Assembly (NCBI GenBank): GCA_903875445.1
Contig: CAIQWD010000116.1
Location: forward strand, 62,001-126,000
Source of the DNA: an uncultured delta proteobacterium
GTDB lineage: Bacteria > Desulfobacterota > Desulfobulbia > Desulfobulbales > Desulfocapsaceae
Length of the DNA: 64,000 nt
Direction of reading: 5' to 3'
Shown here: positions 51,151 through 54,956 of the stretch, one piece after another
Layout of the letters: each line of letters starts with the position of its first letter
How positions within the stretch are numbered: position 1 is the stretch's first letter
Made by a program: the position numbers and the translations under genes
The notes under the pieces: generated by a model
Told to the model about the DNA's origin: nothing
What the model saw: the letters and a program-made list of their open reading frames with translations, nothing else
The model's database searches: none

Positions 51151-53154
51151 TTGATGATTGTTGCGGGAAAACTCATAGAATATCTCGATAATGGCAAGTT
51201 TGTTTGCGCTTTGGTGATCGAAAGCCAACCGAAACGACTCCGACTTATCAACCAGAACGGCAGGGAAGTTAATCTCCCGACATCGCGTGTCATCCATTGT
51301 TCAAACCAAACCCACTCTACCACTGTCGGCAGAGATGCTCTCACAAAACAACTGCGCGAAACCACTGAAAAACGCTGTTCCCTGATGAAAGACCTCAATT
51401 TGCAAGAGATCTGGGAACTGACCGCTGAAGATGGTTCCCATTCTTTTACGCCTGCCTTTCTCTCTGAACTTGCCTTTGGTGAAATTGCCAACGACGATTC
51501 CATTTCTGCTTTCCTCCGCTGTGTGTTTGAAGACAAACTGTTTTTCAAATACAAAGAAGGCCTCATCCTTGCCAACCACCCTGAGAAAGTTGAACAGCTT
51601 CAGATCCAATTTGCCAAGGAAAGAAAACGAGAACAACTCATTGAAGAGGGAGCAGCCTTCATTATCGGAATCCTCTCTGCCAACTCTCCCCCGGAACAAC
51701 TCGGTGCCGTGGAGGAGGAGACTCTGAGAATTCTCCGCGACTATTATCTTTTTGGCAGTGAATCAACCGAAGCTGATCTCGCCCAGAAGTTATTAAAAAC
51801 AGCGGGACTCCACAAGCCTCACGATCCTTTTCATCTGCTGGTCAAAACCGGCATCTGGTCGGCCAATGAGAACATCCCTCTTCTTCGGCATGAACTTCCC
51901 GTCAATTTCTCGCTGGCCGCAAGGCAGCAGGCAGAACTCATTCTGCAGCGTAGTCAGGAGGAACTTTTTAGTGATCCCGGCAGGACTAATCTCACGCATC
52001 TTCACCCTATTACCATTGACGGTCCCACCACCCTTGACTTTGATGATGCCCTCACGGTTCAGGAACAAGAGGGCAACTATCTGGTCGGTATACATATCTC
52101 CGATGTAGCCCATTATGTCCGCCCCGGCGACCCGCTGTTTCTGGAAACGATGCGCAGAGGCACCTCCATCTATTTTCCCGAGGGGCAGATTCCCATGCTG
52201 CCCCGCCACCTTTCCCAAGGGATCTGCAGTCTTATTCAGGACGAAACACGCGCCACCTTGAGTTTTATGGTACTGCTTTCAGCCGACGCAGAAGTGTTGA
52301 AAGTAAGGATATTCCCGTCAATCATCAAGGTAAAGAGGCGTCTCACCTATGAAGAGGTTGACAGGATGCTGGACACCGATCCGGAAATACGGTTGCTGGA
52401 TATCTTGCGCCGCAAGCTGCGGGCTCGACGTCTGCAAAACGGCGCACTCCTGTTGCCATTTCCCGATGTAAATATCTTTATCGATCATCAGGGCAAAGTT
52501 CACGTCAATCTCAGCAAAAGTGACACCCCCTCCAGAACTATAGTGTCGGAAATGATGATCCTGGCTAACAGCGAAGCCGCAAAATATGTGGCTGATCGCA
52601 TGGTTCCCGGCCTATTCAGATCGCAGCCGGTACTCCAGAACAGAATTGTTTTCGGGGAAGATGACGACCTTTTCCAAAACACTTTACAACGGAAAAATAT
52701 CCCTCGCGGAGAACTCTCCACTTCAGCCAAATCGCACAGTGGGCTAGGGGTTTCACACTATACAACGGTCACTTCGCCTATTCGTCGGTTGCTTGACTTG
52801 GTCATGCAGCATCAACTTAATTCCATCATCCGCCGTCAAGAACCCAGCTTTACCGAAGAAATGTGCAAGGATTTCACTTCGGTCCTTACCCGCACCCTGA
52901 CGACCGCACAAATTGTTCGGCAACAACGCCAGCGATACTGGTTGCTCAAGTATTTGGCTGACCGGCAAGGCCAATATATCGATGCCCTTGTGATCCAGGC
53001 CGGTCCCAAGCGAATCAATCTGCTTCTTACCGACATTCTCATGGATATTGATCTGCCTCCACCGGGAGGAAAAAACATGAGCCCAAACACTTTGGTTAAA
53101 GTGCAAATCGTCAAATCCGATCCGCTTGACAACATCATTCGCTTTGATTGGTGA
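51151..53154 (+). CDS. RNB-domain exoribonuclease (RNase II/R family)
   Basis: ITIDGPTTLDFDDALTVQEQEGNYLVGIHISDVAHYVRPGDPL; HYTTVTSPIRRLLDLVMQHQL. Confidence 0.93.
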   Translation: MMIVAGKLIEYLDNGKFVCALVIESQPKRLRLINQNGREVNLPTSRVIHCSNQTHSTTVGRDALTKQLRETTEKRCSLMKDLNLQEIWELTAEDGSHSFTPAFLSELAFGEIANDDSISAFLRCVFEDKLFFKYKEGLILANHPEKVEQLQIQFAKERKREQLIEEGAAFIIGILSANSPPEQLGAVEEETLRILRDYYLFGSESTEADLAQKLLKTAGLHKPHDPFHLLVKTGIWSANENIPLLRHELPVNFSLAARQQAELILQRSQEELFSDPGRTNLTHLHPITIDGPTTLDFDDALTVQEQEGNYLVGIHISDVAHYVRPGDPLFLETMRRGTSIYFPEGQIPMLPRHLSQGICSLIQDETRATLSFMVLLSADAEVLKVRIFPSIIKVKRRLTYEEVDRMLDTDPEIRLLDILRRKLRARRLQNGALLLPFPDVNIFIDHQGKVHVNLSKSDTPSRTIVSEMMILANSEAAKYVADRMVPGLFRSQPVLQNRIVFGEDDDLFQNTLQRKNIPRGELSTSAKSHSGLGVSHYTTVTSPIRRLLDLVMQHQLNSIIRRQEPSFTEEMCKDFTSVLTRTLTTAQIVRQQRQRYWLLKYLADRQGQYIDALVIQAGPKRINLLLTDILMDIDLPPPGGKNMSPNTLVKVQIVKSDPLDNIIRFDW

Positions 53155-53260
53155 TCAGAAGTTGGTAAACTCCCCAAGGTGGTGCCTTTACCAATTTGCG
53201 AATAATTCCCTGAAAAGGACAGGTCCGACATTGCGCTATAATTCCTTTGTAAGCCGATGT

Positions 53261-54670
53261 ATGCAAGAAACCCTCAGCGGTCTGCGAGATGGGTTGTCCC
53301 GTTTTTCCGGGCCCAGCCGTTCAGCAATTATTTTTGCTCTGAAAAAGAATGACGCCTTGCAGATATACGATCCTCAAAATCTGTTGCACGGCCATGAACC
53401 GAAATTGCAGACCATGTATTTCCCTGGTGAGGGTTGGTGCAAACCGCTCGACACCAAATTCTTTAAAAACATGTATAACTACATTGAGCCGCAAGCCAAT
53501 CTACAGCTCGACGGACTGATATCCAACGGGGGGAGTTCCGGTCCGGTTTACTATCAAATGTGGTTTACCGAACACCATCCGAACATTTGCTCGATATTGC
53601 CAATTGAGTGCTGGCTAGAGCATGCCGTTTTACGATTTTCCCACGACATGGCTAAAGAGAGCAATCTTTATACAGGAATTTCAGGTAGTTTTTTGCGTGA
53701 ATATGCCACGCACGCTGTCCACGACTGCATTGTCGATAAGGCGGGACGGTTTCTCGGTCTCGACTTTCAAATCCATATCTACCCGGTTCTCGAAGCAATT
53801 CTCGGCATCTCAAAAACCAACGAAGAAGGAGTACGGCCTTACGGTGCATTGACTTTCATTGAACCGCGGTTTCTGCAAGATATCCGATTTCTCGCAAGAT
53901 TCAAGACGTCGGAACAGCCAATGCTCAGCAATTTCAAACACGTAAGAAAATTACTCCAAGCGGTGGAGCACTCAGACAGGACTCTGATTTCTGAAGGAAA
54001 AAATATTGTCGGCATTGCCGACAAGCATATCCCTCATTTTCATATAACCGCTGATTACAGCGGGAAATTAGGGTTCTTATCGGCTGGAGAAGAAACCCTT
54101 TGCAGTTTTCATGATGGCAGCTACAGCTCCAAGACCCACAGAGCCAAGCTCTTTGAAGTGGAAGAAGCCTTGCTGGATTTTGATCTGGCACCTTCCATAG
54201 GTAGTGACATGTTTCAGATCATTGCCACGCTGGTGCATAACGCCGAAGACAAAAAATTCGGCTGCACCTTTGTCATCGATCTAGCACCGGTTCCAACCGC
54301 TACCGCTGGACAGGCATTAACCCCGCCGATCAATTTGCGACAATCACGGGAATTAGCTCTTGCCGCCGCACTCTCAAAAGTGGACGGCGCACTCCATATT
54401 CGCGCCGATCTACACTTGTACGCCTTTGCCTGTCTGTTGGACGGGCACAGGGTTGCCAATGAGGACAGGTCGCGTGGCGCCCGTTACAACTCCGCTTTGC
54501 GTTTCACTTCCCAGCATCCGCAAACCATTGTCGTCGTGGTGTCTGCCGACCGACCGGCATCAATTTTCCAACAAGGAAAAGAACTTAAGAATAGCTACGA
54601 CGACAACCTTTCTTCGCGGTGTGACCTTTTCCCCATGCCGCTCGAGGAATGGCTAAAAACGACGGATTAA
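53261..54670 (+). CDS. Divergent DAC (DisA_N-like) domain protein with a large N-terminal, probably sensory, region
   Basis: C-terminal KVDGALHIRADLHLYAFACLLDG...RSRGARYNSALRFTSQHPQTIVVVVSAD aligns by eye with the DAC core (DGA...GTRHRAA...IVVS); internal start MQETLSGLRDGL. Confidence 0.65.
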   Translation: MQETLSGLRDGLSRFSGPSRSAIIFALKKNDALQIYDPQNLLHGHEPKLQTMYFPGEGWCKPLDTKFFKNMYNYIEPQANLQLDGLISNGGSSGPVYYQMWFTEHHPNICSILPIECWLEHAVLRFSHDMAKESNLYTGISGSFLREYATHAVHDCIVDKAGRFLGLDFQIHIYPVLEAILGISKTNEEGVRPYGALTFIEPRFLQDIRFLARFKTSEQPMLSNFKHVRKLLQAVEHSDRTLISEGKNIVGIADKHIPHFHITADYSGKLGFLSAGEETLCSFHDGSYSSKTHRAKLFEVEEALLDFDLAPSIGSDMFQIIATLVHNAEDKKFGCTFVIDLAPVPTATAGQALTPPINLRQSRELALAAALSKVDGALHIRADLHLYAFACLLDGHRVANEDRSRGARYNSALRFTSQHPQTIVVVVSADRPASIFQQGKELKNSYDDNLSSRCDLFPMPLEEWLKTTD

Positions 54671-54701: not shown

Positions 54702-54956
54702 TTACAGTTCATGAACCCAAGCAGGTATCCGATTGAGGATGTAATTCTGAACTGCTTCTTTTTTTTGACCTGCGTCAACCTTGCCAACAGCCGCCATTAC
54801 TTCTTCGAAGTCAAACCAACAGAGTTCCTTATCGTCCAAACTGTAAACCATTAAAATGCGTTTTTCAGGTGTATCGACATCCTCTTCTTCTTGAATGGCC
54901 CCTACAAGTTTTACCGCCTCGTGGTAACTTATGAATTTTATTTCCTCTGCGCTCAT
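54702..54956 (-). CDS. Small conserved-looking acidic hypothetical protein
   Basis: 84 aa ORF downstream of the rpmB terminator; no recognised motif. Confidence 0.55.
   Translation of the reverse strand: MSAEEIKFISYHEAVKLVGAIQEEEDVDTPEKRILMVYSLDDKELCWFDFEEVMAAVGKVDAGQKKEAVQNYILNRIPAWVHEL

Follow-up and report, generated by a model that had tools for sequence, protein, structure and literature searches.

The stretch of DNA analysed here (64,000 nucleotides from a bacterium of the sulfate-reducer type, hereafter the window) carries, at 53261-54670 of the forward strand, an open reading frame whose translation yields a protein of 469 amino acids (P0001), downstream of a gene for an RNB-domain exoribonuclease that lies on the same strand and ends at position 53154. 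Both this frame and the C-terminal sequence quoted in an earlier, sequence-only reading were borne out by the translation, as was the gap of about 107 nt given there between the RNB gene and position 53261. However, the start assumed in that reading (53261) is less likely than a TTG at 53231. Since an F-x-x-R-C motif is conserved in relatives just ahead of the first methionine of P0001 (alignment A3), and a TTG occupies the same position in several of them (e.g., L034, L046, L048, L109 and L110), in most cases with an AGG-type ribosome site upstream, the gene probably begins at TTG 53231 and would encode about 479 amino acids, 76 nt after the RNB gene. In three relatives (L007, L014 and L032), the DACND-DAC frame is broken into at least two open reading frames, representing either pseudogenes or assembly errors.

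Table 1. Features of the DACND-DACNH-DAC gene in the window (residues numbered as in P0001).
Feature	Position	Strand	Remarks
DACND-DACNH-DAC gene, probable full extent	53231..54670	+	TTG start, about 479 aa; conserved F-x-x-R-C ahead of M1
DACND, probable sensor domain, residues 3-166	53267..53758	+	Pfam PF21749, E 1.5e-69
DACNH domain, residues 174-279	53780..54097	+	Pfam PF21750, E 2.2e-29
DAC (DisA_N) domain, residues 325-440	54233..54580	+	Pfam PF02457, E 8.6e-12; Foldseek to CdaA/DacA/CdaM, prob 1.00
DGA motif, residues 375-377	54383..54391	+	D375 and G376 in 63/63 sequences
L-L-D-G replacing canonical L-P loop, residues 392-395	54434..54445	+	G395 63/63, D394 58/63; ILDG in DACNG-DACs
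R-G-A-R-Y-N replacing G-T-R-H-R, residues 405-410	54473..54490	+	R408, N410 63/63; Y409 = 41 Y, 22 F (ratio biased by sampling, see text)
V-S-A-D, equivalent of (V/I)SEE, residues 427-430	54539..54550	+	S428, D430 63/63

Three Pfam domains were detected in P0001, all above the cut-off of 27 bits: DACND (233 bits), DACNH (102 bits) and DAC (45.1 bits). The roughly 370 residues in which no motif had been recognised contain DACND and DACNH, two of the DACN* sensor domains which the sequence-only reading had put forward as possible companions of the DAC domain. The protein has the same domains in the same order as the Pfam architecture DACND + DACNH + DAC, with no difference at the domain level, and is a member of it. 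A 2023 study by Galperin (J Bacteriol 205:e00023-23) probably deals with this architecture.

An AlphaFold2 model built with 63 homologues reached a mean pLDDT of 85.7 and a pTM of 0.70. All of its top 50 Foldseek matches in the PDB were DACs of the CdaA, DacA, CdaM or CdaS type (E 6.5e-7 to 3.7e-5, prob 1.00), which upholds the original DAC assignment; a sequence-profile search of the PDB gave no relevant match. When modelled alone, the sensor part also folded well (pLDDT 84), and a structure search with this model retrieved no PDB match for DACND at E <= 0.001. Weak matches to LOV/phytochrome modules and to longin/roadblock-like proteins (at prob about 0.2-0.35: TRAPP subunits, SEDL, Sec22b and MglC) recurred; they hint at a profilin-like fold, but are not strong enough for one to be claimed.

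Active-site motifs and relation to other DACs

In alignment A3 (63 rows), positions D375, G376, G406, A407, R408, N410, S428 and D430 are invariant. The DGA motif is intact, as had been noted from the window protein. The classical G-x-R-H-R-x-A motif reads G-A-R-[YF]-N-S-A in the family, and (V/I)SEE reads VS[SA]D (within VVSAD, residues 426-430 of P0001), the serine being kept, the second glutamate replaced by aspartate and the first one lost. Sequences for A3 were partly picked with RGARYNSAL, one of two contig-scan patterns, which biases the Y:F ratio at position 409. The sets sampled by means of the DACND and DACNH models do not share this bias: every DACND-model relative with a readable DAC region carried G-A-R-[YF]-N-S-[AS], and so did the 18 DACNH loci (18/18) of a phylum-wide draw. 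Judged by these alignments, R-[YF]-N is a clade-wide signature and not a defect; the altered RHR described earlier stands, but it is not peculiar to the window protein.

Comparison with characterised enzymes shows which part of the pocket has changed. For Listeria CdaA, ten ATP-site residues are listed, to which Thr102 and His104 contribute their side chains (PMC7288161). The family keeps the Asp, Gly, Arg and Ser of this site, whereas Glu124 is replaced by Asp, Thr102 by Ala and His104 by Tyr or Phe. Further, Asn replaces the second Arg of RHR, the position of Leu31 in the GALI motif is occupied by Thr, Ser or Ala, and the loop after the Leu88 equivalent is L-D-G instead of L-P. In Leptospira CdaA, alanine mutants of D172 and R203 are dead and an S222 mutant is reduced to about half (PMC12974146); these residues correspond by position to D375, R408 and S428. 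In M. tuberculosis DacA, changing RHR to AAA kills both ATP binding and activity (PMC3328451). Since the essential Arg is retained in the window protein, loss of the RHR string need not entail loss of function. Overall, the protein shares with CdaA/DacA (TIGR00159) and other classical DACs the fold, DGA, the first Arg of RHR and the Ser of (V/I)SEE, but differs from CdaA/DacA in having no transmembrane CdaA_N domain and no His before DGA, as well as in the substitutions described above.

The R-[YF]-N motif extends to DACs with DACNG-DACNH or only DACNH in Bacillus, Priestia, Dyadobacter, Gluconobacter and Citrobacter plasmids, while a Phycisphaera DAC has R-L-N. In a DAC-domain tree based on a small sample with long joining branches, the R-[YF]-N set, including the Phycisphaera sequence, was split from the three CdaA types sampled at 100/100. 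The window DAC profile matched DACNH-linked DACs better than the CdaA of its own genome.

A known member of this wider group is the DAC of the phage-defence system DS-2. The NCBIfam model NF053872 (DS2_3_antiphage) matched the window protein with 66.1 bits over residues 178-434 only (DACNH + DAC), below its equivalog cut-off of 630. By comparison, a Citrobacter plasmid protein with R-[YF]-N scored 804 bits, and its gene comes after two others that encode a patatin-like phospholipase and a nucleotidyltransferase; DS-2 has been described with this same set of genes. According to one report (PMC13092281), mutating two predicted catalytic residues of the DAC abolished phage defence by the CBASS-linked DS-2, a test that does not separate binding from catalysis; there, the DAC-CBASS association is credited to Galperin 2023. 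The window protein resembles the DS-2 DAC in its DACNH and DAC domains and in the R-[YF]-N, L-D-G and S-x-D motifs. It differs in having DACND in place of DACNG, and its gene is flanked by RNB and ResB/CcsA genes instead of a patatin-like phospholipase or CD-NTase partner. Two other plasmid DACNH-DAC genes were observed, one next to restriction-modification genes in Priestia (L114:4362-5876) and one divergent from patatin and nucleotidyltransferase genes in Gluconobacter (L127:4353-6125).

Distribution, gene neighbourhood and c-di-AMP setting

A DAC match was found in all 58 relatives searched, and DACND in 29 of them. DACND was also detected in 19 of 298 genomes sampled evenly across the phylum and in about a third of those of the class (96/265), with essentially one full copy of the gene per genome. 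The named relatives that carry it, among them the cultured Desulforhopalus singaporensis (L042), belong to the Desulfobulbales and Desulfobacterales, across which the family is retained at 49-85% identity with a constant pocket.

Within the immediate family, the DAC gene precedes ResB/CcsA. In the window, as in L041, L043, L044 and L048, the RNB gene adjoins it on the same strand, but in some immediate-family loci the two are separated by an XRE-type regulator and further genes, and intervening genes are found in many close relatives (L035, L037, L046, L047, L056 and L098). In the Desulfobacterales, RNB is not nearby and the neighbours are mostly ordinary ones (GlnE, isocitrate/isopropylmalate dehydrogenase, histidine kinase). 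No defence-island or CBASS context was found at the DAC loci, no defence partner is conserved there, PADLOC gave no match, and no SMODS nucleotidyltransferase was found in the genome. The gene is a stably kept, stand-alone gene among housekeeping genes, belonging neither to an RNB operon nor to a defence island. Phage or plasmid mobility was considered and discarded (no phage match and one distant plasmid match only). Two further observations concern the neighbourhood: in a single case, Desulfobacter latus (L110:3810-6749), a TOTE-type primase/helicase/PLD-like gene lies just upstream of DACND-DAC on the same strand, and a conserved 84-aa protein without a Pfam match, encoded at 54702-54956 on the reverse strand of the window, is oriented towards the DAC gene at some 19 loci.

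The genome encodes three DAC proteins, namely a CdaA above its NCBIfam cut-off and with RHR present, a CdaA_N-DAC-YbbR fusion (L002:1117-2592; G000:C68) in which G-T-R-H-H-A-A alters RHR to R-H-H, and the window protein. DAC matches in frames of a length similar to that of the fusion recur in many relatives. The genome also has a pair of c-di-AMP riboswitches, scoring 90 and 87 bits, which point to a classical c-di-AMP regulon in a member of the Desulfobacterota (regions L152:1913-3889 and L151:2100-2675; G000:C41 and C94): one lies directly before a Kup-type K+ transporter gene (K_trans) and the other near an SLT transglycosylase gene. No PgpH-type phosphodiesterase (PF07698) was found in the genome.

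Proposed function and alternatives

With middling confidence, we propose that the window protein is a signal-gated cyclic-dinucleotide synthase, with c-di-AMP as the favoured product. In the likeliest mechanism, a soluble protein would sense some cue through DACND, and DACNH would pass it on; two DAC domains would then pair face to face, linking two NTPs, presumably ATP, that are held by Asp375, Arg408, Ser428 and Asp430 together with a divalent metal. As the genome contains other DACs and c-di-AMP riboswitches, c-di-AMP is the simplest product to propose, and it would feed the existing circuit of two CdaA-type cyclases and riboswitches. The domains, the DAC fold, the invariant D375, R408 and S428, the R-[YF]-N motif in common with the DS-2 DAC family, the retention of the gene with a constant pocket and the riboswitches all support this proposal. 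Against it stand the Ala and Tyr/Phe at the Thr102 and His104 equivalents, the Asn at the second Arg of RHR, together with the dead AAA variant of M. tuberculosis DacA, and the canonical CdaA already present, which makes a further source of c-di-AMP redundant. No measured product for any R-[YF]-N DAC was found in the literature, as far as could be ascertained.

The sequence-only reading had offered a choice between a non-canonical cyclase and an inactive sensor. The altered motif on which it rested is real, but R-Y-N is not idiosyncratic: the occurrence of R-[YF]-N throughout the family and in that of DS-2, whose predicted catalytic mutants lose defence in the report cited above, favours an active site in use. 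This site might, however, make something else. A cyclase that is active but yields another product (c-di-GMP, a cGAMP-like molecule, or a mixed or oligomeric cyclic nucleotide), its pocket rebuilt by A407, Y/F409, N410 and the L-D-G loop, seems to us a serious but rather unlikely possibility. The substitutions are fixed across the clade, not decayed, and with two CdaA-type enzymes present another maker of c-di-AMP would be redundant. Moreover, the residue after the equivalent of Leu88, which is listed with its main chain for the ATP site of CdaA (PMC7288161), is Asp in 58/63 sequences, and an acidic side chain at this point could read guanine. A contact to adenine through the main chain, on the other hand, means that a side-chain change need not alter the choice of base, and the riboswitches in the genome are of the c-di-AMP type.

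We regard as unlikely, too, and as somewhat harder to maintain, a catalytically dead DAC that serves as a sensor of nucleotides or cyclic dinucleotides and signals via DACND/DACNH. A nucleotide pocket could outlast the loss of chemistry, and the broken RHR and the missing ATP-site Thr and His would fit such a history; yet no variation is seen in the Asp of DGA, the Arg, the Ser or the final acidic residue, and defence by the related DS-2 DAC depends on its predicted catalytic residues, with the reservation on binding and catalysis made above. A phage-defence role like that of DS-2 is improbable: the common DACNH and DAC domains (66 bits) and the plasmid DACNH-type DACs beside patatin and nucleotidyltransferase or restriction genes are outweighed by the distance to the cut-off, DACND in place of DACNG, the single copy per genome, the housekeeping context and the missing defence partners. 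Finally, a functional partnership with the RNB exoribonuclease, to which the earlier reading had drawn attention because the two genes are neighbours on one strand, is rejected by synteny, given the intervening genes and its absence outside the immediate family, and we consider it very improbable.

Returning to the proposed signal-gated synthase, what appeared to be an active-site defect becomes a clade-wide signature that also marks a DAC whose part in phage defence is supported by experiment. This raises one biochemical question, namely which product the R-[YF]-N DACs make. Quite tentatively, the R-[YF]-N/L-D-G DACs, both DACND- and DACNG-linked, might even be an enzyme class of their own among proteins with the DAC fold, one whose signal, other than c-di-AMP, would serve phage defence in DS-2 and some response in Desulfobacterota. 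Most work on c-di-AMP has been done in Gram-positive bacteria, to which the Desulfobacterota do not belong; here, a lineage of that phylum has three DAC proteins together with riboswitches for c-di-AMP, of which one sits at the gene for a K+ transporter.
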